39,532 nucleotides of DNA from Acidobacteriota bacterium (GTDB taxonomy: Bacteria > Acidobacteriota > Terriglobia > Acidiferrales > UBA7541), in the NCBI GenBank assembly GCA_003224145.1, contig QHYN01000210.1:1-39532 (forward strand), in the 5' to 3' direction. Shown here one piece after another: positions 1,499 through 23,164 of the stretch; position 1 is the first letter of the stretch, and the number at the start of each line of letters is the position of its first letter. The notes beneath the pieces were generated by a model, which saw nothing but the letters and a program-made list of their open reading frames with translations, ran no database searches and had not been told where the DNA came from. Position numbers and translations under genes: made by a program.

Positions 1499-1558
1499 TT
1501 GACACCCTTCGCGGTTCTGATCAACGATCCCGATCCGTAAGTTGATCAAGTCGTGATC
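1499..1558 (+). promoter_or_regulatory. Putative promoter overlapped by a five-site GATC cluster
   Basis: A perfect -35 hexamer TTGACA is at 1499-1504, and a weak -10 candidate AACGAT is at 1523-1528 (18-bp spacer). Five GATC tetramers follow at 1519, 1526, 1532, 1544 and 1555, three of them within TGATCA; the last overlaps the start of the methyltransferase gene. None of the five matches RGATCY, so the BstYI-like system should ignore them, while a GATC methylase or a DpnI-like protein should see all five. I infer that this is an autoregulatory region. Confidence 0.5.
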
Positions 1559-2746
1559 ATGTTGAAAACAAACCCCAACTCCCTTCCGGCTCCGGCCTTT
1601 GAGGACGCCAAGCATCACCTCAAGATTTTTCAGGGCGACTGCCTCGACCTCCTCGCCCTCATCCCCGAATCCTCCGTCGACCTCGTCTTCGCCGACCCGC
1701 CCTACTTCCTCTCCAACGGCGGCATCACCTGCCACGCCGGCAAAATGGTCAGCGTCAACAAAGGGGACTGGGACAAATCCCGCGGCCCTGACGCCAATCA
1801 CGCCTTCAACACCGCCTGGCTGGCCGCCTGCCAGCGCGTCCTCAAGCCCAACGGCTCCATCTGGGTCTCCGGCACCGCCCACGTCATCCATTCCGTCGGC
1901 TTCGCCATGCAGCAGCTCGGCTTCAAGCTCCTCAACGACATTTCCTGGGTCAAGCCCAATCCGCCTCCCAATCTTTCCTGCCGCTACTTCACCCACGCCA
2001 CCGAAACCCTCATCTGGGCCGCCAAAAACTCCAAATCGCGCCACACCTTCCACTACAAGCTCATGAAGGAAATCAATCGCGGCAAGCAGATGAAATCCGT
2101 CTGGGAAATCCGCCCGCCCGAGCCCTGGGAGAAAAAATTCGGCAAGCACCCCACCCAAAAACCCGTCGCCCTCCTCGAACGCATCCTCCTCGCTTCCTCC
2201 CACGAAGGCGACCTCGTCCTCGACCCGTTCGCAGGCAGCGGCACCACGGCCCTCGCCGCGTTCCGCCTCCGCCGTCACGCCCTGGGCTGCGAACTCTCCG
2301 CCGACTTCCTTGCTCTTTCGCTGCGGCGCATCTGTTCCAATCTGGTACAGGTCGATCTTTCTCTCTCTTCCTTCCAGTTTTCCCTTGATCCGTTTCCCGA
2401 TCCTATGGATCGATCCAGTAGCGCCGGCGTCTCGCCGACCCGCGTGTCATCCCGAGCGAGCGTTGCGCCGTTTGCAACGCGACGAGGGATCTGCTTTTCG
2501 CGGTGTCATGTGGGTGCCACGCTCTCGAATTTTGAGGGTCGGAATTTTTCTCGAATGCCAGCCCAACTCCAACTCGTCCAGCAAGAGCGCCGCTTCTATT
2601 TCATCGGCCGCACCGACCGTCGCGTCATCTTCTCTGTACTCGCCGACTCCCTCGACGAAGCCCGCCAAAAATTCCGTGCCTCCGGCCGCTCTGACTCCGA
2701 CGCCCTCTTCATCATCAAAACCGAAACCGAAATCTACCTCGCCTGA
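1553..2746 (+). CDS. Site-specific DNA methyltransferase, DpnA/M2.DpnII-like (predicted m6A in GATC)
   Basis: This is a beta-class DNA methyltransferase: the catalytic motif DPPY (residues 48-51) precedes the SAM-binding motif DPFAGSGTT (about 223-231). DPPYFLSNGG, then VNKGDWDKS, NLSCRYFTH and GKHPTQKP closely match what I remember of M2.DpnII (DpnA), which makes m6A in GATC and also acts on single-stranded DNA. The DNA-sensing and catalytic core ends near residue 265, the usual family length. The remaining ~130 residues read through a REP-like repeat (2420-2520) and end in a 63-residue tail starting at Met335. Start is GTG 1553 or ATG 1559, inside a GATC cluster. Specificity is inferred from family resemblance; other specificities occur in this subfamily. 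Confidence 0.85.
   Translation: MIMLKTNPNSLPAPAFEDAKHHLKIFQGDCLDLLALIPESSVDLVFADPPYFLSNGGITCHAGKMVSVNKGDWDKSRGPDANHAFNTAWLAACQRVLKPNGSIWVSGTAHVIHSVGFAMQQLGFKLLNDISWVKPNPPPNLSCRYFTHATETLIWAAKNSKSRHTFHYKLMKEINRGKQMKSVWEIRPPEPWEKKFGKHPTQKPVALLERILLASSHEGDLVLDPFAGSGTTALAAFRLRRHALGCELSADFLALSLRRICSNLVQVDLSLSSFQFSLDPFPDPMDRSSSAGVSPTRVSSRASVAPFATRRGICFSRCHVGATLSNFEGRNFSRMPAQLQLVQQERRFYFIGRTDRRVIFSVLADSLDEARQKFRASGRSDSDALFIIKTETEIYLA
2420..2520. repeat. REP-like repeat inside the 3' part of the methyltransferase ORF
   Basis: The segment begins GTAGCGCCGGCGTCTCGCCG, the same head as the elements at 7862 and 38870 (GTAGCGCCGG...), and continues TGTCATCCCGAGCGAGCG and GAGGGATCTGC, a word string that looks like a dispersed intergenic repeat. 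It lies in frame within the methyltransferase reading frame and encodes low-complexity residues unlike the enzyme core. Confidence 0.55.
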
Positions 2747-2813: not shown

Positions 2814-4430
2814 GTGAACTACAATAGTGATATCCTCTCAGCCGTTCCAGCGCTTCAATTTCTGGCGAGAGGTGTGAGCTCATCTGCGATGAACAAGGGT
2901 GCCGCACTCAACAAACGCGTTTGGACGCTCTTTGACAAAGCGGGCTTCACAACCAAGCCGAACATTCAGAGCACAGCTGAACACCAAGTACAGCTGGCCC
3001 CCGACAAGAAACGAAAGGTTGATCTCTTCGCAACTGAGACGAAACTGGGCGTGACTATCATCGCCTCCAACAAATCTGGAGGCGTCAAGGATTCGTGGAC
3101 TGCGCACGTTAACGACTGGGAGGTAATCGGCCAGAAAGCAGGAGCAACTAAGGTTTTGTTTGTGATCACGGGAAAAGAGCTTTCTCCTGAGGACAAGGCC
3201 TACGCCACAAATAAAGGCATGTCTATCTGGGGAGAACGCGAACTTTCCTACTACGAAGCTCTGGCTGCAACGATCAGACAATACGCCAAATACGAGATCA
3301 TCCACGCTCTTGGCATAAGAACTAGCGAAGAGAAGAACATACATAGACTCTTGGCGCTCAAACTTCAGCAACCGACCCCAGGCTCATCTAACGATTTATA
3401 CTTGTTCTCGATACCAGCCGAACATCTGCTCAGGATATGCTCGATCTATAGACGAGCGCAGGGTGACGCTAACGCTTACCAGAGAATGCTTCGACGAGAA
3501 CGATTACCTAAGGTCCTAAGTTTCATCGCCCAGCCCGAAGCAATCCTACCCACGAATATCATCGTCCACTTGAACGACCGGGTTATTGTTGAAGATATTA
3601 AACTCGAACAGGTCACAGATTTTAAGGACAGACCGATTGTTCTCTCAAGGCCCGGCTTGAACAGGCTGGTCGTCTTGAACATTCCGATGGAGTATTCCTC
3701 TCTCGAGCTGATTGACGGACAACACCGTCTCTTTGGGTTTGTACAGGCAGAGCCAGCAACTCGAATAGGTTTCGATCTCGTCGTAACCGCAGTGAAAGGT
3801 CTCAGCATCAAGAAGCGGCAAGAAACTTTCGTCGCCATCAATGATAATTCGAGAAGGATGGACCCAAATCTCGTCGCGTATCTCAGGTACACGAAAGATC
3901 TCGCAGAATGCCAAAAGGATAACGCGCTAATGGCAATTCGGGTTGTCGTGGAACTTAATGACCAAAGTCCATTCAAGAACTCAATTAGGCTGCTTGATGT
4001 CGGCGACCAAGCAATCACACTCAAAAACTTTTCCGGCTACGACCTAAAGGGCTTGCTTGCTCCCCGAGGAATTCTTCGGAAGCTTTACCCCAATAATGAT
4101 CCCGACGAGTTCATCACCGTTTTGAGAACCTATTTTTCAACTGTCCGTAGCTTGTTCGGGAAAGAATGGAGAGATCCGGATAACTGCATCGTCTCAACGA
4201 ACCGCGGGGTCTCCGCTTTTCTGAAGTTACTGAGATCGATGTTCCGGACGGAGAAGAGGCAATTAGCCCACCAGGATTTCAAGAAATATCTGTCCGCCCT
4301 GAAACGCGAATGGAAGAGTTGGAAATTCGCTGACCTAAAGAAAACATACGTTGGGTCTCAAGGTTGGGCCGACTTTCACAAGGACCTCGTGGCGGCTATT
4401 CGAAAACACTATCCGTATCTCAAAAAGTAG
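2814..4430 (+). CDS. DGQHR-motif protein (DndB-like family) of the restriction island
   Basis: This 538-residue protein carries the DGQHR motif at residues 301-305 (context LELIDGQHRLFGF) followed by FVAINDNSRRMDPNLV, the pattern of the DGQHR/DndB superfamily. Members accompany DNA-modification islands, for example DndB as a repressor of phosphorothioation genes. The N-terminal ~150 residues resemble a restriction-endonuclease-like fold: VDLF...GVTIIASNKSGG sits where a D...ExK site would be expected, but the acidic residue is missing, so nuclease activity is doubtful. Start GTG 2814 has no clear ribosome site; ATG 2889 is an alternative. Base composition is more AT-rich than the flanking methyltransferase, as in the next two genes. 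Its exact role here, as regulator or DNA sensor, is unknown. Confidence 0.8.
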   Translation: MNYNSDILSAVPALQFLARGVSSSAMNKGAALNKRVWTLFDKAGFTTKPNIQSTAEHQVQLAPDKKRKVDLFATETKLGVTIIASNKSGGVKDSWTAHVNDWEVIGQKAGATKVLFVITGKELSPEDKAYATNKGMSIWGERELSYYEALAATIRQYAKYEIIHALGIRTSEEKNIHRLLALKLQQPTPGSSNDLYLFSIPAEHLLRICSIYRRAQGDANAYQRMLRRERLPKVLSFIAQPEAILPTNIIVHLNDRVIVEDIKLEQVTDFKDRPIVLSRPGLNRLVVLNIPMEYSSLELIDGQHRLFGFVQAEPATRIGFDLVVTAVKGLSIKKRQETFVAINDNSRRMDPNLVAYLRYTKDLAECQKDNALMAIRVVVELNDQSPFKNSIRLLDVGDQAITLKNFSGYDLKGLLAPRGILRKLYPNNDPDEFITVLRTYFSTVRSLFGKEWRDPDNCIVSTNRGVSAFLKLLRSMFRTEKRQLAHQDFKKYLSALKREWKSWKFADLKKTYVGSQGWADFHKDLVAAIRKHYPYLKK

Positions 4431-4486
4431 GGGCAATGCATGTTGTGTAGGTCCAGCCGGTGGGCTAAAGTACCAGCCCATGCATC

Positions 4487-4507
4487 AGGTCGGGAGACCT
4501 TTCGTTG
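4487..4507 (+). promoter_or_regulatory. Hairpin presenting the ribosome-binding site of the endonuclease gene
   Basis: AGGTC (4487-4491) pairs perfectly with GACCT (4496-4500) round a GGGA tetraloop, placing the likely Shine-Dalgarno GGGAG (4492-4496) in the loop and first closing pair, eight nucleotides before the TTG start (4505-4507). This could limit translation of the endonuclease, or serve as a small operator. It is inferred from sequence alone. Confidence 0.45.
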
Positions 4508-5116
4508 AGAATAGAAAAACTTTACTCTCACTTGAACGGGCATGAATGGCTCTTGGTTCACCAGCACAAGGTATGGAAAGAGATCGAAGCAGCTATCGGC
4601 AAGGTTGATGCCAACAAATACAAAACCAAGATAAGCGAAGAAAAAGGCATGGAGGGGAAACACCTGTTCTCCCCGATCGAACTAAACAAACGCTTCACTA
4701 CCGAGTTCAGAAAGATGGGCTGGAGTGAAAGCCGCACTAGCTATTGGGTCACCGACGAATACGACCTGATACGAAAAACTCTTCACCTGTCTGCCGAGGA
4801 CCAGAAAAAGGAAATCGAAAAAGCCGGGCACAAAGCCATCTTCTCTTTTAACCAGACAGATTTTGTCAAGAACCGAGTCGCGATTGAAATTCAACTTGGG
4901 AAGTACAGTTTCATCGCGTACGATTTGTTCGTCAAGCACATGGCTTTCTACGTTCGCGATGCCATCGACGTCGGCATCGAGATACTGCCCATGAAGTCAA
5001 TGCAGCAAGAAATGTCTTCGGGTCCCGGTTACTACGAGGGGGCTCTCTATGACATGGCGCGTCAGGGTCGAGGAGTGCCGGCGGTCCCGTTGGTTTTGGC
5101 AGGTGTCGTGCCATGA
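4505..5116 (+). CDS. BstYI/BglII-family type II restriction endonuclease (predicted R^GATCY)
   Basis: The protein is 203 residues, the length I remember for BstYI, and matches that enzyme from end to end (MRIEKLYSHLNG at the start, then SPIELN, ESRTSYWVT, NQTDFVKNRVAIEIQ and YSFIAYDLFVKHMAFYV). The catalytic residues of this family are a D-x8-E-x-Q motif rather than ExK. Here they are Asp119, Glu128 and Gln130, with the same spacing as BglII (D84, E93, Q95). Cleavage at RGATCY is therefore predicted. Start TTG 4505 is chosen because it gives the BstYI-like N-terminus and has GGGAG upstream. The partner methyltransferase follows at once. The gene is AT-richer than its flanks, suggesting horizontal acquisition. 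Confidence 0.93.
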   Translation: MRIEKLYSHLNGHEWLLVHQHKVWKEIEAAIGKVDANKYKTKISEEKGMEGKHLFSPIELNKRFTTEFRKMGWSESRTSYWVTDEYDLIRKTLHLSAEDQKKEIEKAGHKAIFSFNQTDFVKNRVAIEIQLGKYSFIAYDLFVKHMAFYVRDAIDVGIEILPMKSMQQEMSSGPGYYEGALYDMARQGRGVPAVPLVLAGVVP

Positions 5117-5209
5117 GATTAGCAGACCCGGAGGTTGACGGGCGAACAGATATTCGCTTATTCTTCGCCTATGGCATTTGAGTTGCTCGAAATCGAGGGG
5201 GAGCAAGAG

Positions 5210-6148
5210 TTGACTAAGAGAAAGGACTCTTACATCGGCGGGCATTACCAGCCTCATTCGGCCGTAACGCTCTTCCAGGGTGATCGGCTCCAACTCCTTG
5301 AAGAGATTCCTGATAAGACTGCTCGCCTCATCGTTACTTCACCCCCGTACAACATTGGTAAGAAATATGAAAAGCGTTTGGGGTTCGATGAGTATTTGAA
5401 ACTCCAACGAGACACGCTAACGGAATGCGCCCGGATACTGGCTGCCAATGGAAGTCTTTGCTGGCAGGTCGGGAACCATATCGGGAAAGATGGTGAAGTT
5501 TTTCCACTGGATATTTTCATTTACGGAATCTGTAAGGAGTTGGGCCTAAAACTTCGGAACCGAATTGTTTGGTGCTTCGAACATGGACTCCATTGCCGCA
5601 AACGGCTTTCCGGACGCTACGAGACAATCCTGTGGTTCACCAAGAGCGATAATTACATATTTAATCTGGATGCGATCAGGGTCCCACAAAAGTACCCTGG
5701 GAAAAAATACTTCAAAGGCGAAAAGGCAGGTCAGTATTCGTGCAATCCGCTAGGCAAAAACCCCGGCGATCTCTGGACCATCCCAAACGTCAAACACAAT
5801 CACGTTGAAAAGACCATCCATCCTTGCCAATTCCCAATCGAGCTTGTTGAACGCTTGGTCCTAGCCCTAACCAATTCCGGCGACCTCGTTGTAGATCCTT
5901 ATATCGGGGCTGGTAGTGCTGCATGCGCCGCAGTTTTGCATGGTCGACGTGCGGCTGGAGCTGACACGGCGGCTAACTATCTCAATGTCGCAAAGGAAAG
6001 AATCAAACGTGCGCTCGAAGGAGAGTTGCGGCGCCGGCCGCTGGGCCGTCCGATTTACCAGCCTTCCCCAGGTGACCGCATCGCGCAACGTCCCGCGCAA
6101 CTTGCCCCGGCGAAATCTATCCAGGCCCCACTATTCGCGACGGCCTAG
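5210..6148 (+). CDS. N4-cytosine DNA methyltransferase partner of the BstYI-like endonuclease
   Basis: This is a beta-class methyltransferase: catalytic TSPPY (residues 43-47) comes before the SAM-binding VDPYIGAGSA (about 228-237). SPPY instead of DPPY/NPPY indicates N4-methylcytosine, as in the methylases of BglII and BstYI. GKNPGDLWTIPNVKHNH and KTIHPCQFPIELVERL are typical of the group. It should protect RGATCY sites from the upstream endonuclease. Start is uncertain. TTG 5210 has the best Shine-Dalgarno (GAGGGGGAG, six bases away); ATG 5171 and TTG 5135 are in-frame alternatives. The C-terminal ~40 residues are proline/arginine rich and probably disordered. It ends 22 bp before the dpnI-like gene. 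Confidence 0.92.
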   Translation: MTKRKDSYIGGHYQPHSAVTLFQGDRLQLLEEIPDKTARLIVTSPPYNIGKKYEKRLGFDEYLKLQRDTLTECARILAANGSLCWQVGNHIGKDGEVFPLDIFIYGICKELGLKLRNRIVWCFEHGLHCRKRLSGRYETILWFTKSDNYIFNLDAIRVPQKYPGKKYFKGEKAGQYSCNPLGKNPGDLWTIPNVKHNHVEKTIHPCQFPIELVERLVLALTNSGDLVVDPYIGAGSAACAAVLHGRRAAGADTAANYLNVAKERIKRALEGELRRRPLGRPIYQPSPGDRIAQRPAQLAPAKSIQAPLFATA

Positions 6149-6170: not shown

Positions 6171-6938
6171 GTGGACCTGCACCTCCCCACGGCTGGCCTC
6201 GACCGCTACAAAAGCGCCTCCCAACGCGCTCGCGTTGGCACGGAATCCTGGGGCGCCGCTAATTTCTTCTGTCCCGCCTGCGAATCGCCACGCCTTCGGT
6301 CGGCGCCCCAAGGCACCGCCGCGATCGACTATGTCTGCCCCTCGTGCGACTCTCCTTTTCAGTTGAAGAGCCAATCGAAGCCGCTAGGCAGCAGAATCGT
6401 TGACGCCGCCTACTCCGAAATGAAGCGCGCCATTCTCGAAGACAGAACCCCCAATCTCTTCGTCTTGCACTATGACCTTGACGCGTGGGCTGTCCACACG
6501 GTTCTTCTCGTCCCGCATTTCGCCTTTGCACTATCCGCAGTCGAGCGCCGCAAACCTCTCGCGGCAACGGCTCGCCGCGCAGGCTGGGTCGGCTGCAATA
6601 TTTTGTTGGATAAAATTCCCGTACATGCCCGCATCTCTGTCGTGAGCGAAGGGACTCCCCTCACTCCGCGCGAAGTGCGCAGCTCTTACAACCGACTCCG
6701 GCCCCTGGAAAAACTGCGGGTAGAAAAACGCGGCTGGACCCTCGACGTGCTTCAAGTCGTGCAATCCCTGGGCAAAATGGAATTCACCCTTGCCGACGTC
6801 TACGCCCACGCCGGCTCCCTCGCGAAACTCCATCCCCATAACCGCCACGTCCGCGACAAAATCCGCCAGCAACTCCAAGTCCTCCGCGACCTCGGCCTCC
6901 TGGAATTTCTCGGCGGCGGTTCCTACCATCTCACCTAG
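6171..6938 (+). CDS. DpnI-family methyl-directed endonuclease (Gm6ATC), Q64 variant
   Basis: The 255-residue protein aligns with DpnI (254 residues, from memory) over its length: YKSASQRAR near the N-terminus, a zinc ribbon with Cys34, Cys37, Cys56 and Cys59, then RKPLAATARRAGWVGCNI (about 127-144), RGWTLDVL and a C-terminal winged helix with RDKIRQQLQVLRDLGLLEF. DpnI cuts GATC only when the adenine is methylated, using both the catalytic domain and the winged helix to read the mark. The catalytic set Asp53, Glu64, Lys66 of DpnI appears here as Asp53, Gln64, Lys66. The D...QxK form is known in active Mrr- and MspJI-like nucleases, so activity is possible but not certain. Start is GTG 6171, without a clear ribosome site. 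Its last 30 codons recur three times downstream. Confidence 0.93.
   Translation: MDLHLPTAGLDRYKSASQRARVGTESWGAANFFCPACESPRLRSAPQGTAAIDYVCPSCDSPFQLKSQSKPLGSRIVDAAYSEMKRAILEDRTPNLFVLHYDLDAWAVHTVLLVPHFAFALSAVERRKPLAATARRAGWVGCNILLDKIPVHARISVVSEGTPLTPREVRSSYNRLRPLEKLRVEKRGWTLDVLQVVQSLGKMEFTLADVYAHAGSLAKLHPHNRHVRDKIRQQLQVLRDLGLLEFLGGGSYHLT
6846..6938 (+). repeat. dpnI 3'-end repeat, copy 1 (within the intact gene)
   Basis: This is the 93-bp reference copy, codons 226-255 plus stop of the dpnI-like gene, encoding the recognition helix and wing of the winged-helix domain. The near-invariant core CGCGACAAAATCCG lies at 6852-6865. Confidence 0.8.
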
Positions 6939-7252
6939 ACAACGTCTGCACTCACAGGCTGCACCTGCCGGTCAATCTCCAATGCCTTGCCCGCCCGCCT
7001 CTCGCATTCCAAATCGTAGAAATTCTGCAGGTTCAGCCAGAACTCCGCGTTCGTCTTGAAATAGCGCGCCAGCCGTAGCGCCGTCTCCGCCGTGATTCGC
7101 CGCCGCTCGTGCACAATCTCCCCAATGCGCGTCGCCGGCACATGCAGCTCCAGCGCCAGTTTGTTCACCGACAACCCCAGCGGCTTCATAAAATCCTCCC
7201 GCAAAATTTCTCCTGGATGCACAGGAGCCATCAGCTTTTCCGTTTTGCCCAT
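6935..7252 (-). CDS. higA: HigA-family antitoxin (XRE-type helix-turn-helix)
   Basis: The protein, starting MGKTEKLMAPVHPGEILRED, is a classic HigA/VapI antitoxin: HPGEIL, a five-helix HTH (VNKLALELHVPATRIGEIVHERRRIT) and TALRLARYFKTNAEFWLNLQ. It should bind and neutralise HigB and repress the higBA promoter. It begins 14 bp after the higB stop, with AGGAAAAAG as ribosome site. An alternative start is the Met at 7231. The gene's stop overlaps the dpnI-like stop by four bases in the opposite orientation, so the two genes are convergent. Confidence 0.93.
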   Translation of the reverse strand: MGKTEKLMAPVHPGEILREDFMKPLGLSVNKLALELHVPATRIGEIVHERRRITAETALRLARYFKTNAEFWLNLQNFYDLECERRAGKALEIDRQVQPVSADVV

Positions 7253-7266
7253 CTTTTTCCTGCCTC

Positions 7267-7545
7267 TCAGTGATAATCCACGATTTCTACCTGGTAGCAA
7301 TGCCCATCGCGCCAGACGAAGCAAATCCTCCACTGATCGTTAATCCGGATCGCGTGCTGCCCTTTCCGGTCGCCCCGCAATGCCTCCAACTGGTTTCCTG
7401 GAGGCGACGCTAGGACGCGCAATTCCGTCGCGGCGTGCAGTTGCAACAGTTTCCTCAGCGCGACGCGCTCGAAGGCCCGAAAACGCCGCGAATGCTGGTA
7501 ATGAAACAGCTCTTCGGTTTCCTTCGAGGCAAAGCTCTGAATCAC
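7267..7545 (-). CDS. higB: HigB/RelE-type toxin (mRNA interferase)
   Basis: This 92-residue protein matches the HigB plasmid-maintenance toxin family: MIQSFASKETEELF, then LRKLLQLHAATELRVLASPPGNQLEALRGDRKGQHAIRIN and QWRICFVWRDGHCYQVEIVDYH. Such toxins cleave mRNA on the ribosome. Toxin precedes antitoxin, the usual order for hig loci. The start is GTG at 7545, immediately downstream of a good -10 box, so the message may be leaderless or nearly so. Confidence 0.93.
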   Translation of the reverse strand: MIQSFASKETEELFHYQHSRRFRAFERVALRKLLQLHAATELRVLASPPGNQLEALRGDRKGQHAIRINDQWRICFVWRDGHCYQVEIVDYH

Positions 7546-7551
7546 ACGCCA

Positions 7552-7580
7552 AGCATACTACGTAGTACGTTATACGTCAA
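7552..7580 (-). promoter_or_regulatory. higBA promoter with overlapping palindromic operator
   Basis: Read on the minus strand, TTGACG (7580-7575) and TATGCT (7557-7552) are separated by exactly 17 bp. The perfect 12-bp palindrome TACTACGTAGTA (7556-7567) overlaps the -10 box, where HigA would be expected to bind for autorepression. The predicted transcript start falls at or just before the higB GTG. Confidence 0.7.
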
Positions 7581-7628
7581 TCGGGGCAGATGGCGCCTTC
7601 GCTTGAAAGCCGGGGGCGACTCTTCCCC

Positions 7629-7712
7629 CGCGACAAAATCCGGCAACTCGAAGTCCTCCGCGACCTCGGCTTGCTCGATTTCCTCGGCGGCGGGCTCTAT
7701 CGGCTCGTGTAG
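7629..7712 (+). pseudogene. dpnI 3'-end repeat, copy 2 (orphan C-terminal fragment)
   Basis: In frame this reads RDKIRQLEVLRDLGLLDFLGGG, then LYRLV and a TAG stop, matching the end of the DpnI-like protein with one codon deleted. The core CGCGACAAAATCCG is at 7629-7642. No upstream dpnI sequence is attached; the higBA promoter region lies just before it. It is a fragment, not an expressed gene. Confidence 0.85.
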
Positions 7713-7766
7713 GGAGCGGCCCTCCCAGACGGAAAAGCGGCGTCGAGCCGCCGCACTCCAAAAAAT
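7713..7766. repeat. REP-like element between dpnI fragments
   Basis: AGGGAGCGGCCCTCCC, then AAGCGGCGTCGAGCCGCCG, then CACTCCAAAAA form small palindromes of the REP style (stem GCGGC/GCCGC). The GCCGCCGCACTCCAAAAAAT end is shared with the sequence before copy 4 at 8767. Confidence 0.6.
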
Positions 7767-7771
7767 GCACT

Positions 7772-7864
7772 CACGTCCGCGACAAAATCCGCCAGCAACT
7801 GCAAGTCCTCAGAGACCTCGGCCTGCTGAAATTCCTCGGCGGCGGCGACTACCGTCTGTTGTAG
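7772..7864 (+). pseudogene. dpnI 3'-end repeat, copy 3 (orphan C-terminal fragment)
   Basis: The 93-bp segment encodes HVRDKIRQQLQVLRDLGLL, then KFLGGGDYRLL and a TAG stop, the same extent as codons 226-255 of the intact gene. Compared with copy 1, six of ten changed codons are synonymous, so the divergence arose while the sequence was coding. Core CGCGACAAAATCCG is at 7778-7791. The next REP array begins at its stop. Confidence 0.85.
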
Positions 7865-8018
7865 CGCCGGGCTTTCCCCCGGTTTGTGGGGGTCCCGACG
7901 GTGTTTGTCGGGAAGCCCGGCATCTTTGCTTTTTCTATGCGCCGAAGAAACAGTGCCGGGCTCTGCCCGCAAAGAACGCGGGCAGTCCCCATAAACCGGG
8001 GCAAAGCCCGGCGCTACA
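7862..8018. repeat. REP/BIME array upstream of the RAYT gene
   Basis: Successive palindromes have GCCGGGCTTTCCCCCGG, a GCCGGGCTCTGCCCGC block and GGGGCAAAGCCCGGCGCTAC. The block 7962-8018 (GCCGGGCTCTGCCCGC to GGCGCTAC) is repeated almost exactly at 8677-8738, on the far side of the transposase gene. Confidence 0.8.
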
Positions 8019-8125
8019 ACACCAAAGGACGCTGGGAGTCCCTACAAGTCAGGGCAAAGCCCGGCGCTACAACACCAAAGGACGCTGGGAGTCCCTACAA
8101 GTCAGGGCAAAGCCCGGCGCTACAA
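8001..8125. repeat. 53-bp tandem direct repeat (2.4 copies)
   Basis: Units start at 8001, 8054 and 8107 with GCAAAGCCCGGCGCTACAA. The first two complete 53-bp units appear identical, and the third stops after 19 bp, just before the RAYT gene. Each carries half a REP palindrome. It is not a CRISPR: there are no variable spacers. Confidence 0.88.
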
Positions 8126-8163
8126 TCTTCATGTTATGCGCCTATACTATTACTCTATTGCAT

Positions 8164-8706
8164 ATGCCCTTCCTCCGAAAAGATACCCGCCTCGCTCCTC
8201 GGAATTATCTCGGTTACGGAATCTATTTCATTACCATCTGTACCAGCGACCGGGTCCCGCGCTTCGCCGACATCTCTCTTGGCCACCTGGCACTGGGTCA
8301 CCTGATTTCCCTCGCAGCGCGCCACTCTTTTCTGCTCCACGCCTTCTGCCTCATGCCCGATCATCTTCACTTCCTTGCCGAAGGGAATTCTCCCGAATCC
8401 AATCTCCTTCGTTTCGTCACCGCCTTCAAACAGCGGACCAGCTTGGCCCACAAAAATCGCGCGCACGCTCCGCTCTGGCAAGCCAAATTCTATGACCACA
8501 TTCTTCGCGTGCCGGAGCAATCGGAATCGGTAGCCTGCTACATCTGGGCAAACCCGGTTCGAAGAGGCCTCTGCCAGGACGCAGTCTCGTATCCCCTGTC
8601 AGGCTCGCAAACGCTGGCTTGGAAAAGGCTCTGCGCGAATTCAAGTCAATGGCGGCCGCCGTGGAAGGAATTCTTGCCGGGCTCTCCCCGCAAAGAACGC
8701 GGGTAG
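8164..8706 (+). CDS. REP-associated tyrosine transposase (RAYT, IS200/Y1-like)
   Basis: The 180-residue protein has the Y1/HUH layout: YGIYFITICT, the HUH motif in CLMPDHLHFLAEG, and the probable catalytic tyrosine in KFYDHILR, followed by CYIWANPVRRGL, a RAYT hallmark. RAYT enzymes are single-copy domesticated transposases thought to move REP elements. The gene is flanked by near-identical REP blocks (7962-8018 and 8677-8738), and its stop codon falls inside the downstream block, so the last ~15 residues come from REP sequence. ATG 8164 is chosen; ATG 8131 is an in-frame alternative. Upstream in-frame sequence is repeat, not protein. Confidence 0.9.
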   Translation: MPFLRKDTRLAPRNYLGYGIYFITICTSDRVPRFADISLGHLALGHLISLAARHSFLLHAFCLMPDHLHFLAEGNSPESNLLRFVTAFKQRTSLAHKNRAHAPLWQAKFYDHILRVPEQSESVACYIWANPVRRGLCQDAVSYPLSGSQTLAWKRLCANSSQWRPPWKEFLPGSPRKERG

Positions 8707-8738
8707 TCCCCATAAACCGGGGCAAAGCCCGGCGCTAC
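8677..8738. repeat. REP block downstream of the RAYT gene
   Basis: GCCGGGCTCTCCCCGC, then AAAGAACGCGGGTAGTCCCC, then GGGGCAAAGCCCGGCGCTAC, almost identical to 7962-8018. It overlaps the 3' end of the transposase gene, making a REP-RAYT-REP unit. Confidence 0.82.
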
Positions 8739-8791
8739 GCGCAAAGATGGGACGTAAGCCGCTCGCGCCGCCGAACTCCAAAAAATGCACT

Positions 8792-8884
8792 CACGTCCAC
8801 GACAAAATCCGCCAACAGTTGCAGGTTTTGCGCAATATGGGCCTCCTGGAATTTCTCGGCTCCGGTTCCTACGGTTTACCTTGA
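8792..8884 (+). pseudogene. dpnI 3'-end repeat, copy 4 (orphan C-terminal fragment)
   Basis: The 93-bp segment encodes HVHDKIRQQLQVLRNMGLL, then EFLGSGSYGLP and a TGA stop, again the exact extent of codons 226-255. Many differences from copy 1 are synonymous (for example CTC to TTG, GTC to GTT). Its upstream 48 bp (8767-8814) match 7747-7794 before and into copy 3 with two mismatches, so copies 3 and 4 share the same junction. Confidence 0.85.
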
Positions 8885-8908
8885 GCTGGCCCCTACCAAA
8901 GAAAACCT

Positions 8909-9000
8909 GCACAGGCAAGAATGCCTGTGCCACCCCCAGAAATGGCTGTGCTACGAATGTTTCAGAGCCAGAGGATTTTCCAGGAAAGAAATTCCTGGAA
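8909..9000. repeat. Two small perfect hairpins
   Basis: GCACAGGCA/TGCCTGTGC (8909-8917 and 8922-8930, loop AGAA) and TTCCAGGAA/TTCCTGGAA (8978-8986 and 8992-9000, loop AGAAA). Both have nine-base-pair stems and no T-tract, so they look like dispersed palindromic repeats rather than terminators. Confidence 0.65.
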
Positions 9001-9055
9001 CTCGATGGGTCCACTAATTCCCAGCTATAATCACAATTCCTGCCTAGGAGTCGTT

Positions 9056-9751
9056 ATGAAGCGAACACCTTCCCGGCCGATCCTCGGGTTTCTCCTCCTG
9101 GGTGCTGCCGTGGCCGTTTCCCCGTCAACGACTCTTGGCCAGTCGTGTTCCTTCAACACCGTCCCGCAGGGACGCGGTTGTAGCAAGGAGGGTGCACGAT
9201 GCAGCCCACCTACCGTGGGCGGCGGCAATGTGGGCAAGTGCACCACCGAGGCTGGGCAGGCAAATACCCTTGTATGCGAATGCCAGGGCGCGCCCACTCC
9301 CAGCTACAACATGACCCTGTCGCCCCTGACGCCTGCCACCCTTAGTGCAGGCGTCGCAACCTCCACGATCACCGTCATTCCATTCAACGGCTTTACCGGC
9401 AAGGTAGACTTCGCCTGCACGATCTCCGGAATGGGCCATCCCGCGCCGCCCTGTGCGACTCCCGCTCCGGCGACCGTGACCGGCCCCAGCTCTGCCACGT
9501 CATTGTTGACCGTCTCCGCAAGCTCTTCTACAGGGGACGCCGCATTTACGGTTACAGTGAATGCCGTGGATGCTCATGGTCGGCCGCCGGACAACGGGGC
9601 GCAATCTTCGACCCTGTTGGTTTCCCATTCGCCCTGGATCATCGGGAACAGTTTCGGTAGCGCGAAAATGGCCCTTGTAACTTTTTTGGTTTTGCTTTCG
9701 CTCTGGGTGCTCGGATACTTGTGGCGTAACAGGCGACCCGCCTCGCGGTGA
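9056..9751 (+). CDS. Secreted, C-terminally membrane-anchored Ig-like protein
   Basis: This 231-residue protein has a signal peptide (MKRTPSRPILGFLLLGAAVA, cleavage near TLGQS), a Cys-rich first part, then a beta-rich region (TLSPLTPATLSAGVATSTIT ... NGFTGKVDFACTISG) like the repeated Ig-type domains seen in acidobacterial exoproteins. A C-terminal transmembrane helix (MALVTFLVLLSLWVLGYLW) with RNRR on its cytosolic side follows. That end resembles sorting or anchor tails. ATG 9056 has TAGGAG six bases upstream. No enzymatic motif is seen; a surface or adhesion role is a guess. Confidence 0.75.
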   Translation: MKRTPSRPILGFLLLGAAVAVSPSTTLGQSCSFNTVPQGRGCSKEGARCSPPTVGGGNVGKCTTEAGQANTLVCECQGAPTPSYNMTLSPLTPATLSAGVATSTITVIPFNGFTGKVDFACTISGMGHPAPPCATPAPATVTGPSSATSLLTVSASSSTGDAAFTVTVNAVDAHGRPPDNGAQSSTLLVSHSPWIIGNSFGSAKMALVTFLVLLSLWVLGYLWRNRRPASR

Positions 9752-18559: not shown

Positions 18560-21500
18560 TTAGTTGGCGGAGTATTCATTTCGCAAAACATGGGTCGGCT
18601 CTCGCTGACGGGTAGCGCTCGGCTCCTGCGGCGCGGACCAGGCGGCACGAAGTTCTTCCGCATGGCTGACGAGGCGATCGATCAGGCCAGGCGATAGGGT
18701 GCCTTTGCGAGGAGATTCCGCTTTGGCTACTGCCGGAGAAATTTCCAGCAACTGAAGTTTTTCCAGTACGGGTTTCAGCGCGCGGTCGGGATTGCGCAGA
18801 AATTCCGTGCAGCGAATGCGCGTGAAAATCCAGCCCATGCGCTCGAGAACGGACTGGCGATCCATGTCTTCCTGGAGTTTTTCGAGCGGATGATAACGAT
18901 CGCCGTCGCACTCGATGGCCAATCGTTGGCCGTTTCCTTCGACCACGAGATCGATGCGGAAAGCGCCGATTTTCCACCGTGGAGTGACGTGATAGCCGGC
19001 AGCCAAAAGGCGTTTCATGACTTCGCGTTCGAACGGCGACTGCGTGCGCTTTTCTTTTTCCTCCAGCGCGCGCATCAGCCGGCTGGGATCCTGAGCGTGC
19101 TCGATGAGCTGGCGGCGAAGGTCTTCGGCCTTGAGGTCGTTGTGCGGGCTGAGCGAATGGATGACCCACATCTGGTCACGGGCGCGGCTGGCGGCGACGT
19201 TGAAACGCTGCTTGAAAAGTTCCTGGTCGCGGAGAGAAAGAGCGCCGCGCTGTGCGGTATCCACAAGGGAAATGAAAATCACATCGCGTTCATCGCCCTG
19301 GAATTGCGCGGCATTGCCGCAGAGCAAGCGGTGAAGCTCGTAGCGATCGGGTGAGAGATGAGCGCGCAGCAGATTGTCGATTTCGATGGCTTGCTCGTCG
19401 CCGACCAGGGAAACGACGCCGAAGCTGAGCGGCTGTCCCGCGCCATTCTTTTTGTACTCGGGCTCTTCGATAGCCGCGGCAACCAGCGAGGCGACGGTGA
19501 GAGCTTCCTGGCGATTGATCTTGCCGTCGCGGCTGGAGCCTGGGACGCGAAGAGCGACGGTGTGAGGCAGCAGGCGCACACGGCTGGCGTCGCGCAGCGG
19601 CTTGATCCGCCAATCGTAGGAAATCATGTTGCTGAATTGGATGATCTCCGGGACGCAGCGGAAGTGCTCGACAAGGCAGGTGGTGCCGCCGAAGGATTGC
19701 CGCGCGAGATCGTAGATGGAAATTTGGCCATCGTAGAGATCGGAGTTGGGGATGCCCGGCAGGTATTGGAAGATGAGATTTTGAATGATGCCGAGATCCT
19801 GGCCGACGGCGGAGGGGCTCACCTGTTCGTGGTCGCCGACGACGAGCACGGTCTTGCCAAGGTAGAGCGCGACGAGCGCCATCACATCGCTCTGGCTGGC
19901 CTCGTCGATGATGACCACATCGAAGCGCGTGACGCGCGGGTCGAAATTTTCGACCACGCGAGAGATCGGCATAACCCAGACCGGCACGGCACTGCGGCAC
20001 TCGGACATTTTCCTGGCGGCTTCCGCGCGCAGCAGGGAAACACGAATGCCGTGGCCTTTGCCGATCCTGCGAATGGTGTCGAGCCAGCCGACCAGCGCTT
20101 GGCGCTGGCGGGAAGAAGTGCGGCGAGCCTGCGAAGACCAGGCGCGGCGGTCGATGAGGTCGATGGTCACGCGGCGAAGTTGTTCGCGGAGTTTTTCACT
20201 TTTGGATTGCAGGGATTCGAGCGAAACATTGGCGCGGCGATCGAGTTCGTCGTTGAGCTGGCGCCAAACCCAGGCTGCAGAAGGATCGCGAGGCGGTTCG
20301 CGGCGGCCGTGCATGCCGGTGCGATTTCGAATGGCCGCTGCCCAGGCGGGCGTGGCGCTCTCCAGTTTGGTGAGCAGCGCCCGGCGGAGATCCAGATCGG
20401 CCTGACGGCTCTTCAGTTCCAGCAGGCGCTCGTAGGCGTCGCGGTACGCGTTGCAATCTTCTCCCTGGATGGCCTTGAGCAAATGGCCGATCACTTTCGA
20501 AGCTTTGGCGGCGCGAGAGGCAAGTTTGAGGCGGCTTTTCAGTTCGCGGATTTCTTCTTCGAGCTGGAGCAGCTTCAGTTTATTGAAACGCGAGTCGAGG
20601 ATGGGGAGAAGGGCGTTGGTGACGGCTTTGCCGATGCGCACGAGCTCGCCCTCCGCGCCGATGACCGCGGGCTGTTCGGCGAGAAATTTCTCCCAGCGAA
20701 AGCCGAGGTCGGCGAGCTGCTGCTGGAGCGGGAGCCAGGTGCGTTCATGCCAGCTCAGGCAGTCTTCGATGGAATCGCAGTATTGCATGAGCGTCTTTTC
20801 CACTTCCTCGCCCATATGCGCCGAGGGAGGAGTCCCGAGCGAGGCCATCTGGCGGTCCCAACGCGCGGAAAGCTCCTGACGGAGATTCTTGAGGTGCGCC
20901 AGTTTGTACAGGGCATGAAAGTGCTCGGGCCGCCGAGGGCGAGAGTGATTTACTTTTGCCGATTCGACAAATTGGCTCCAGGATTTATGAGTGAGGAGCG
21001 TGAATGAGCCGAGTTTGCCGCCCTCTTCGAGATGAGCGAGGATTTCGCCGACAATGCGCTGCTGATCTTCCAGGCTGAGCACGCCAGAAAGCTCGGGGCC
21101 ATATTTGATCAACGATTCTTGCGCGTTGGCTGCTTCACGGTGAAGGAGGCGCACCGAGCTGACCAACTGTTCCCAGGGCTGGCGATGCGCGCCGCCGTAC
21201 TTTCCGGCATAGACAGCGGCGAGTTTCCATTTCTCCTTGCCCGAAAGAGGCTCGACAGCTTGCGTCAGATTCGCGGCCAGGGCTTCCAATTCCTCCGGTG
21301 TGCCTTGGGCAGCGCCCGATTGCCATAGGTCCGAGCGGAAGTCCAAGTCTTCCATGCCGAGACGGTTGCGCTCGCTCACGGAAGATTCGAAGTCTTCCGG
21401 ACGCGGGAGATCATGAATCTCCGGAAGGTGGCCGGAAAGCTCTGCTTCGTCTTCACGAGTGACAGAAACATTGGTGCGATAGAGGTCCGTCAATTCCGTG

Positions 21501-23164
21501 GAGGAAAGCGGCAAAGGCGCGACTGCGGCAACGGGCCCGGGGATCCAACCGTTACTTTCTTTTTCCTGCGCGACCTTGCGCGCGGCGTCGGCGGGAGCCC
21601 AGGGTTTTCCGGCGATCACAATGTCGCGATACTCGTCGGCGCGAGCGTCCGAGAGCTGATTGCGAAGCTCGTCCAATTTCTTGAGAAGATCGAGGCGCTG
21701 CGATTCGGACTTCCCGGCTTCCTGGTCCAAGGAACTCGCGTCGGCCCTCGAGAGCCTTTCGGCGATGGAGCCGACGGCGCTTTCCAACTGCTTCCGGCTC
21801 TCCAAGTCACTTTCGAGGACGCTGACGCACAACGGGCGCAGCTCCGGAACGATGTGATGGCGGACCATACGCAGCGCTTTCGTCGTGTGGCTGGTAACCA
21901 AAACACTTTTTCCCTGCGCCAGCAAATGCCCGATAAGATTGCCGATGGTGTGGGTTTTGCCGGTGCCGGGAGGACCCTGCACCAGCACGCCTCCGTGCTC
22001 TTCCAGTTGCTTGGCGATGCGAATCTGTTCGGGATTGGCGGGCTTGCTCAAGAGAACTTCCGCTTCCGTTTGGGAAAAGCCGCCCGTGGATGCGTCCGCT
22101 TCGGTCGGGTCAGCAATGGGAGATTCTTCGCCCACGATGTTCAAGAGAGACCACGGCAGATCTTCGCGAGTGCGCAGGTCCGCCAGGATGCCTTCGATGG
22201 CGGCGGCGAAACCCAGCGTGCGGGCGCGCAAAAAGATGACCGGATCGCGGCCAATGCGAGGATCGTGTTGTTCGCCGGCCGGCGCGCTTTCTTCGATGAA
22301 TTCGCCTCGCGGCGAGAGCTGCACGACAAGCCGTCTCAGAAACGTGGAGGTAGCGCCGTTGAACAGAGGATGGAATCCTCCTTGTTCCAATTCCTCGCGG
22401 CAGCGACCGATCGCGCGTCCATTCACGTCGGCCATCGATTGGAAGAGAGCGGAATAAAGCTCGACGGGATAGTCGGCCTCGGAGAGCGTGAACTCGGGAA
22501 CCGAAGCGTCAAACTGCAGTTGAAGGCGTTGCAAGAGAATGGGGTGGAAAATTCCGCCCTCCGCGCGCTGCCAACTCAAAATGCCATCTCCCACAACGAG
22601 CTCGACGCGTTCGGCCTCGCGATCGATGCGCCCATAGAGGGAATAAAAAGTCTCGAAGATGCGCATGGCCGCGCACGCGGGCTTTTCGGTTTTCGCCCAC
22701 TCGTCGCGAAGGAACGTCCAGCGTCGAAGCGCGGCAAGTCGCCCCGGATCGGCAGCAAACTCGGTCTGCTTTGATTCGCCATTTTCGGGGGATTCCTCTC
22801 GAGACTCGAGAACCAATGAATGGTTCGAGGGGTCATCCCATCCGGACTCCAACCATTCGGCAATTTCACGGGGCGGTTCGGGAGGGCGAGTCAACTGTGG
22901 CCGCTGGACCCTCAGAACAAAACTCGCGTTGCTGGCGGTTTCTGCGCTCTGGGTGTCGGCGCTCTTGGATTTCGCGGAGCCCGGGTTGGATTTAGCGGCG
23001 CCTTGCCGGATGGAAGGGTGATTCGGAAGGTCGTGCAGCCAGAGGTGCCAGAGCTGATCCCGAATCTCGCGTTTGGGCGGATTGCGATGCTGGTTCAGCG
23101 CTTCCAGGTAACGGAAGACACGCGTGATTTTTTCCCGTGCGACACGGAGCTTCTCGGAATCCAT
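18560..23164 (-). CDS. Superfamily 1 helicase fused to a Vsr/DUF559-like nuclease
   Basis: The 1534-residue protein has an N-terminal domain of unknown role, then a Upf1/DNA2-type helicase core: Walker A GPPGTGKT (about residues 397-404), long alpha-helical insertion (about 480-1000), Walker B IIDEASQSD (about 1083-1091), then VLVVGDHEQVSP, QFQGDERDVIFISLVD and RFNVAASRARDQMW. The last ~160 residues hold a restriction-endonuclease-like domain (FEREVMKRLLAAGYHVTPRW, FRIDLVV, RLAIECDGDRYH, MGWIFTRIRCTEFL) of the Vsr/DUF559 type, with D, E and the ECDGD core visible. Such COG1112-type helicase-nuclease fusions occur in anti-phage defence loci. It stands alone here, with no partner beside it. Confidence 0.9.
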   Translation of the reverse strand: MDSEKLRVAREKITRVFRYLEALNQHRNPPKREIRDQLWHLWLHDLPNHPSIRQGAAKSNPGSAKSKSADTQSAETASNASFVLRVQRPQLTRPPEPPREIAEWLESGWDDPSNHSLVLESREESPENGESKQTEFAADPGRLAALRRWTFLRDEWAKTEKPACAAMRIFETFYSLYGRIDREAERVELVVGDGILSWQRAEGGIFHPILLQRLQLQFDASVPEFTLSEADYPVELYSALFQSMADVNGRAIGRCREELEQGGFHPLFNGATSTFLRRLVVQLSPRGEFIEESAPAGEQHDPRIGRDPVIFLRARTLGFAAAIEGILADLRTREDLPWSLLNIVGEESPIADPTEADASTGGFSQTEAEVLLSKPANPEQIRIAKQLEEHGGVLVQGPPGTGKTHTIGNLIGHLLAQGKSVLVTSHTTKALRMVRHHIVPELRPLCVSVLESDLESRKQLESAVGSIAERLSRADASSLDQEAGKSESQRLDLLKKLDELRNQLSDARADEYRDIVIAGKPWAPADAARKVAQEKESNGWIPGPVAAVAPLPLSSTELTDLYRTNVSVTREDEAELSGHLPEIHDLPRPEDFESSVSERNRLGMEDLDFRSDLWQSGAAQGTPEELEALAANLTQAVEPLSGKEKWKLAAVYAGKYGGAHRQPWEQLVSSVRLLHREAANAQESLIKYGPELSGVLSLEDQQRIVGEILAHLEEGGKLGSFTLLTHKSWSQFVESAKVNHSRPRRPEHFHALYKLAHLKNLRQELSARWDRQMASLGTPPSAHMGEEVEKTLMQYCDSIEDCLSWHERTWLPLQQQLADLGFRWEKFLAEQPAVIGAEGELVRIGKAVTNALLPILDSRFNKLKLLQLEEEIRELKSRLKLASRAAKASKVIGHLLKAIQGEDCNAYRDAYERLLELKSRQADLDLRRALLTKLESATPAWAAAIRNRTGMHGRREPPRDPSAAWVWRQLNDELDRRANVSLESLQSKSEKLREQLRRVTIDLIDRRAWSSQARRTSSRQRQALVGWLDTIRRIGKGHGIRVSLLRAEAARKMSECRSAVPVWVMPISRVVENFDPRVTRFDVVIIDEASQSDVMALVALYLGKTVLVVGDHEQVSPSAVGQDLGIIQNLIFQYLPGIPNSDLYDGQISIYDLARQSFGGTTCLVEHFRCVPEIIQFSNMISYDWRIKPLRDASRVRLLPHTVALRVPGSSRDGKINRQEALTVASLVAAAIEEPEYKKNGAGQPLSFGVVSLVGDEQAIEIDNLLRAHLSPDRYELHRLLCGNAAQFQGDERDVIFISLVDTAQRGALSLRDQELFKQRFNVAASRARDQMWVIHSLSPHNDLKAEDLRRQLIEHAQDPSRLMRALEEKEKRTQSPFEREVMKRLLAAGYHVTPRWKIGAFRIDLVVEGNGQRLAIECDGDRYHPLEKLQEDMDRQSVLERMGWIFTRIRCTEFLRNPDRALKPVLEKLQLLEISPAVAKAESPRKGTLSPGLIDRLVSHAEELRAAWSAPQEPSATRQREPTHVLRNEYSAN

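Follow-up and report, generated by a model that had tools for sequence, protein, structure and literature searches.

How the 3' end of one restriction gene came to lie four times in a row, with toxin-antitoxin (TA) genes and repetitive extragenic palindromic (REP) elements between the copies, is the question raised by a locus of an Acidobacteriota bacterium. The DNA analysed, referred to here as the window, is a stretch of 39,532 nucleotides (GenBank assembly GCA_003224145.1, contig QHYN01000210.1, positions 1 to 39,532 of the forward strand), which is the complete contig C126 in a 359-contig draft assembly rated as 4% contaminated. It contains an intact dpnI gene of the Dam-replacing family (6171..6938, + strand), encoding a catalytic part and a C-terminal winged helix (PF06044, 3.7e-50; PF17726, 3.8e-26) with the DpnI_C domain border at residue 185 in the Pfam scan, and further downstream three orphan fragments of a dpnI 3' end. 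A moderately probable explanation is sequential displacement: the copies would have built up in layers through successive recombination events, with restriction-modification (RM) genes as the anchor.

According to this explanation, the locus would take up a further allele of dpnI, or a different nuclease gene, together with the small genes travelling behind it; homology in RM genes would anchor one side of the incoming segment, and the other would rejoin inside the resident gene's final 30-45 codons or close to them. The incoming gene would stay intact, and the 3' stump of the resident gene would be left and pushed downstream, keeping the TA or REP unit that had followed the old gene; repeated rounds would result in the order dpnI, TA, stump, TA or REP, stump, the order of events being itself inferred. 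One side may be joined by homologous and the other by illegitimate recombination, or the joining may involve the single crossover of a circle, as proposed for Rhs. The orphans compared are nearly always 3' ends and bear the mark of alleles that diverged while functional, pairings of a stump with a TA unit recur with a changed left neighbour, and two Nitrospirota records contain the partner methylase's 3' end more than once.

Copies of the dpnI 3' end in the window

Repeat comparison places the 3' end of the intact gene at 6846..6938 (copy 1) and the orphan 3' ends, all on the + strand, at 7628..7712 (c2, with one codon lost: KIRQL), 7772..7864 (c3, whose stop codon is the start of a REP) and 8792..8884 (c4, also recovered by protein search). 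An earlier note, made from the sequence alone, had described these four same-strand ends with coordinates that are right to a few bases, and the higBA genes, the REP-like palindrome and the unit of a REP-associated Y1 transposase (RAYT) flanked by REPs that it placed between them were confirmed by Pfam, TIGRFAM and repeat searches. The downstream order is thus dpnI, higBA, c2, REP-like palindrome, c3, REP-RAYT-REP, c4. The repeat search detected one four-copy family in a 113-nt frame, with the copies at 6817, 7591 and 8763 showing 72%, 61% and 78% identity to the reference copy at 7743. A protein search of the window's genome revealed the same three orphans and a fifth copy on contig C341, and chance matches are excluded by the E-values of the last 150 nt of the window dpnI against the three orphans (1.7e-27, 8e-19, and 1e-17).

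The copies were said in the earlier note to differ largely at synonymous sites, which is not so, nonsynonymous changes being about as many: the ratios of synonymous to nonsynonymous differences from the window dpnI are 7.5:6.5 for c2, 5:5 for c3 and 7.5:8.5 for c4, a synonymous share above the neutral expectation of about 0.29, yet not near-all. The dpnI stumps are ~14-22% different from the intact gene over the 72 nt compared, and methylase stumps differ by 5-8%. The last 34 nt of the REP-like palindrome and junction upstream of c3 (7738..7775, + strand) are common to the c4 junction; these upstream non-dpnI sequences are identical at 31/34 nt, while the stumps themselves are identical at 59/90 nt (p 0.0035). 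The one junction thus precedes two 3' ends that are not alike, a finding consistent with recombination within the stump.

Divergence between orphans and intact genes

Regarding the history of the fragments, one gene-orphan pair per array, chosen by the analyst, was compared in seven arrays. The pooled pairs had 47.7 synonymous and 33.3 nonsynonymous differences, a synonymous fraction of 0.59, the expected fraction being 0.58 for two genes that both remained functional while diverging (p 0.91) and 0.37 for a neutral orphan duplicate next to a gene under constraint (p 5e-5); the ratio of 0.27 used in this test was derived from dpnI and applied to the methylase too. Four gene-orphan pairs outside the pool had fractions of 0.47-0.63, and the Nei-Gojobori ratios over the last 24 codons were 0.27 between intact genes, 0.29 between orphans and intact genes, and 0.31 between orphans. 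Based on the synonymous fraction and these ratios, the orphans were parts of working genes through most of their separate history, which bears out the earlier proposal that the fragments derive from separately evolving dpnI genes, the neutral duplicate being rejected. Detection by protein profile favours conserved fragments; young neutral duplicates would still be easy to detect, and the orphan that comes closest to being one is that of G551. The nearest copy of many orphans, but not of all, sits in another genome.

It is unlikely, given these values, that TA, REP or RAYT units insert in the 3' end of an RM gene and duplicate ~100 bp of it, with later allele replacement creating the divergence. 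The ~100-bp direct repeat that such an insertion requires does flank the insert, and according to two reports (PMC3874152; PMC1643837, with an example from Helicobacter pylori) RM-linked direct repeats of ~100 bp surround inserted genes, similar to those found here at RM genes. The repeats that run past the stop codon in loci L176 and L150 would also fit, as would genome G551, in which the copies are separated by a bare REP-like element and the orphan is partly neutral, and the fact that the L150 and G551 orphans are closest in sequence to the neighbouring gene. However, near-identical copies were seen in none of the arrays, the lowest divergence being ~5% (the L176 methylase, 4:1 synonymous), and the pooled test rejects the neutral duplicate, although later allele replacement could hide an initial identity. 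Compared with the repeats in those reports, the ones described here are diverged alleles and not identical duplicates, and what they enclose is in most cases TA, REP/RAYT or a different nuclease and not the RM system itself.

A separate feature of the 3' end is its codon usage. In six intact genes of the genus, the fourfold sites of the last 33 dpnI codons (window 6837-6935) comprise C 67, G 4, T 15 and A 8, a C-rich, G-poor pattern that is found neither in the gene's remainder nor in 69 dpnI genes elsewhere; one guess is a Rho-type termination site against the convergent gene. Synonymous divergence in the genus over the last 33 codons was 0.48 versus 0.70 (permutation p 0.0002). Gene conversion was considered for this low divergence and rejected, because the strong C bias accounts for it fully (observed/expected 1.01), and the value is not usable in favour of sequential displacement.

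Occurrence at intact dpnI loci and in related genomes

Five 150-nt segments of each of 86 distinct intact dpnI genes were compared with the gene's own locus, the gene being masked; 75/86 loci had at least 1.5 kb downstream. Matches of the 3' segment at E<1e-4 were detected at 6/86 loci (the window, L074, L149, L150, L161, and L213), or 5/85 minus the window, and all 12 matches are downstream and on the same strand, the L074 copy comprising 44 nt only. At the same threshold, segments 0-2 matched at no locus and segment 3 at one REP-ridden locus. Among 493 other genes in the same loci, which served as control, a downstream 3' match was found for eight and a 5' match for four. Two of the eight are the partner methylase (L149 and L176), while the remaining ones, judged by position only, are short REP-like matches, open reading frames (ORFs) overlapping repeats, and one longer repeat (L198); with all eight counted, the difference between dpnI and the control genes has a Fisher p of 0.010.

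Regarding related genomes, a profile built from 20 dpnI proteins was searched against 89 genomes of the family, the G-labelled genomes compared throughout being draft assemblies. Matches were present in 29/89 genomes, with 18 near-complete genes counted, and 9/89 genomes had short 3' orphans, 12 in all, with start residues in the range 208-229: three in G000, two in G011 and one each in G009, G012, G013, G020, G022, G059, and G079. The G059 match reached back to residue 185 through two stops in one search and started at 215 in another. Longer 3'-terminal pieces were kept outside the 12 (residues 124-253 in G023, 141-253 in G011, and 193-253 on C341), as was G058, with residues 214-236 only, for which a 104-nt DNA match turned up later. 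Other family matches that are not 3' ends come from G088, where an N-terminal piece borders on a contig edge, and from G008, whose gene is frameshifted; both genomes were left out of the orphan count, the two pieces of G088 lying at contig ends.

The earlier suggestion to look in relatives for dpnI followed by 3'-end fragments thus led to such fragments in the family, in a second acidobacterial family (a match in 17/39 genomes, with further orphans in e.g. G551, G552 and G561), and in Nitrospirota, where records L149 and L150 also carry repeated dpnI 3' ends. A GTDB scan with the C-terminal 45 residues, of which the best 79 loci were kept, gave mostly full-length genes. Possible DpnI_C domains on other N-termini (starts 174-187 in L154, L166, L171, L182, L196, L210, L212, G097, and G137) were left aside, while a piece in G119 starting at residue 184 was retained because of its open frame of 83 aa. 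In an even draw across the phylum, a dpnI match was found in 12/396 genomes.

It is improbable that several full-length dpnI paralogues decayed in place, with mainly the most conserved end remaining recognisable. In agreement with decay, dpnI genes or C-termini broken by REPs exist (C341, G553, G538, and G552), longer 3'-terminal remnants occur in G023 and G011, G028 retains a middle part, and the C-terminal motif is the most conserved and the easiest to detect. Nevertheless, besides contig edges and the frameshifted gene, the family has one fragment without the 3' end, segments 0-2 of the 86 genes give no DNA matches, and upstream of the stumps inspected there are TA operons, REP/RAYT units or other nucleases and not decayed dpnI. 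Decay in place, which the earlier note had named as the alternative, does occur for the REP-broken dpnI on C341, but is not the favoured account of the array.

Genes between and behind the copies

In the window, the intact gene is followed by the convergent antitoxin gene higA (6935..7252, - strand; TIGR02607, 2.6e-32), whose stop codon overlaps that of dpnI and whose ORF extends to 7333, with a presumed ATG near 7252, and by the toxin gene higB (7267..7545, - strand; PF05015, 1.7e-13). Between c3 and c4, REP elements in direct and inverted repeats (7857..8125) lie left of the RAYT gene (8164..8706, + strand; PF01797, 4.2e-6), and the REP element to its right (8675..8738) is 97% identical to the left REP. 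REP-like elements start at the stop codons of dpnI copies at window 7862-7864 and at L213:5043 and L161:6135, where the REP itself seems to supply the stop codon.

Other arrays have other units between the copies: a Gp49-type gene, DUF433/DUF5615, a PIN gene and then a further short remnant in G011; HicBA and then a PIN gene in L150; HepT/nucleotidyltransferase in L149; a REP-like element alone (by eye) in G551; and in G552 REP-like elements around a gene that is 32-37% like the window RAYT and has no Pfam match. Between the copies in G009 there is a protein with a PADLOC REase_II match (6e-7). Between the methylase and the dpnI stump there is a Mrr nuclease in G059 and a possible NucS-like gene in G012 (a weak match, below the cutoff). 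The 3' end of the partner methylase is itself repeated, beyond a DUF3800 gene in L149 and beyond a DUF433/DUF5615 pair in L176; since the methylase in these two Nitrospirota records shows the same kind of repetition, the dpnI sequence is not special. L176 also contains, at 6874-9735, three TA-like pairs (named by eye) with ~110-nt repeats between them; on inspection, CCTCCGCCCCAA is found near the start of three of the four repeats and the close variant CCTCCGTCCCCA in the fourth, and the repeat starts resemble the dpnI stump start and then diverge.

Three stump-TA pairings recur with changed left sides, as counted without a statistical null. The higBA genes are located after intact dpnI in the window, after broken dpnI on C341 and after an orphan in G020; both G011 and G013 have DUF5615/DUF433 downstream of an orphan, with left-side sequences that differ between them; and HicBA is convergent behind the dpnI C-terminal fragment in G119 and lies behind an orphan stump in G551 (~360 nt) and G552 (~100 nt), with intact dpnI farther upstream. 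In relatives, higBA is also found at dpnI-free sites, where homology covers only ~6945-7583 of the window, and in G035 it directly follows the second methylase, without dpnI.

The earlier note took the array for the product of repeated arrival at the dpnI 3' end; the older ends left behind and their recurrence in relatives agree with this, but a defined integration site at the gene end is not supported. A dedicated cassette or integrative (or integron-like) system that attaches at the 3' end of dpnI and rebuilds the end of the gene at each arrival is very improbable. TA pairs are commonly carried by cassettes, the 5' edges of many orphans fall, by eye, 7-18 nt ahead of AAAATCCG, c3 and c4 have a common junction, and the L176 repeats with CCTCCGCCCCAA or CCTCCGTCCCCA are located between TA-like pairs, all of which would suit such a system. 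Yet no integrase was detected between the copies or among the 18 window proteins scanned with Pfam (part of the window ORFs), and a methylase gene is repeated likewise. Nor do all junctions have one exact crossover core: the orphan 5' edges scatter, as judged by eye, from ~7 to ~45 nt before AAAATCCG, some being longer or shorter. The near-invariant core GACAAAATCCG noted earlier is indeed present in all four copies, but was rejected as an attachment core, its lysine codon being AAA in 59% of the 86 full-length dpnI genes versus a background of 63%; with codon use this near to background, the core mirrors the protein motif DKIR and not a conserved DNA site. Thus, with no integrase between the copies, scattered edges and a core unconserved at the codon level, the site-specific system is unsupported.

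Contig C341 and interrupted dpnI genes

Contig C341 (L084:5118-11445) has in common with the window a PfkB gene (97%) and higBA (100% protein identity), while a DpdB-like protein and two D12-class methylases replace the window's RM genes. Both methylases match PADLOC model PDLC03261 and are presumably FokI-like by model type. Of its dpnI gene the 3' part only is present, broken by REP-like inserts, and the 5' part is gone. C341 is probably a sister haplotype of the locus caught after RM replacement, which we infer and do not take as established because the genome is rated 4% contaminated.

The dpnI C-terminal regions of L219, L220 (G553) and L222 (G538) are interrupted at about codons 214-232 by REP-like elements, and in L215 (G554) dpnI is interrupted by a DUF433/DUF5615-like pair (by eye), the two halves overlapping by four codons. 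Comparison of G119 with G551/G552 and of C341 with the window reveals what resemble intermediate displacement states, with no strain-level pair among them. A search for an empty site via the TPR gene of the right flank, which is present in 15/36 genus genomes (E<=1e-100), gave none that was clean; among the TPR neighbourhoods inspected, clear dpnI copies were located beside this gene in the window and G011 only, and short weak dpnI-like matches in G027 and G017.

Comparison with known systems

Integron arrays consist of small cassettes, often TA, separated by ~100-nt repeats. Unlike in these, what repeats in the window is part of the coding sequence of dpnI, with no integrase between the copies, and most TA cassettes here are oriented against the repeat.

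In effector-immunity arrays of the type VI secretion system, as described in PMC5361080, homology anchors the arriving module, which takes the place of the resident gene and pushes that gene's 3' end downstream together with its small follower; there is no specific integration site, the alleles come from different strains, and homology-facilitated illegitimate recombination was proposed. The layout described here is similar in having a new module beside a conserved anchor and an old 3' end plus follower shifted downstream, whereas here a restriction enzyme gene is displaced (in Nitrospirota its methylase as well), the neighbours kept are TA genes, REP/RAYT units or nucleases, and what is repeated is the stump. 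Displacement of rhs C-termini, according to PMC2935791, likewise produces arrays in which each fragment of the gene is accompanied by a follower that varies, explained there by circle crossover in the shared fragment. In that paper, however, the rhs follower is the gene's own variable C-terminus and the core fragments within a locus are identical, while here the gene is complete and the dpnI stumps have diverged. Among the matches listed in a search of open-licence full texts, there was no paper on such arrays at RM genes.

Several observations weigh against sequential displacement. The 5' edges were judged by eye and by profile, and around codons 222-229, where they cluster, the detection limit is nearly reached. 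For the orphans of L150 and G551 the most similar copy is the adjacent intact gene, and the G551 orphan, with 6.7 synonymous to 8.3 nonsynonymous differences (0.44), appears partly neutral. Apart from G088 and G008, the one family fragment that lacks its 3' end is that of G028, which covers residues 46-180 and lies 280 nt from a contig end. It does not fit the pattern, nor do the three fragments beyond the window's genome in the phylum draw (six candidates per genome scored), all of which are N-terminal, so that the 3'-orphan pattern is not universal. The right-hand pairing is without a statistical null, and the Gp49 gene known from G011 is found in G022 ~1.5 kb past the orphan with other ORFs between, and therefore gives no support for tight pairing. 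An exact donor was not found for c2, c3 or c4, the best other copy being at 0.84, 0.88 and 0.79, respectively, and among the genomes compared there was no pair showing one step before and after.

If sequential displacement is nevertheless right, RM loci hold a readable stratigraphy of past restriction alleles and TA pairs, the displacement proposed for effector and Rhs loci also acts on RM genes, and the pile-up of TA genes beside RM genes has a testable reason, namely hitchhiking on RM-anchored recombination. It is quite unlikely that RM-gene 3' ends are recurrent landing sites, across phyla, for small circles consisting of a gene 3' end and a TA unit that enter by a single crossover in ~90 bp; if true, RM loci would accrete addiction modules by arrival order, an integrase-free analogue of integrons and rhs tips.

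Other genes of the locus

Upstream of dpnI, the window encodes an N6/N4 DNA methyltransferase of the MTase-B type (1553..2746, + strand; PF01555, 1.4e-54 for the scanned part 1553-2278), a type that in relatives often lies directly upstream of dpnI as its partner. In the window the two are separated by a BglII-type system (2814-6148), all on the + strand, the first gene of which encodes a DndB/DpdB-like protein (2814..4430; PF14072, 1.7e-8; PADLOC DpdB, 1.3e-19), followed by the BglII-type restriction endonuclease (4505..5116; PF09195, 3.3e-27; PADLOC REase_II, 1.6e-83) and a second N6/N4 methyltransferase (5135..6148; PF01555, 8e-49). Farther downstream, a large SF1-type helicase with an MTES_1575 restriction-nuclease domain (18560-23164, - strand) is probably another defence gene.

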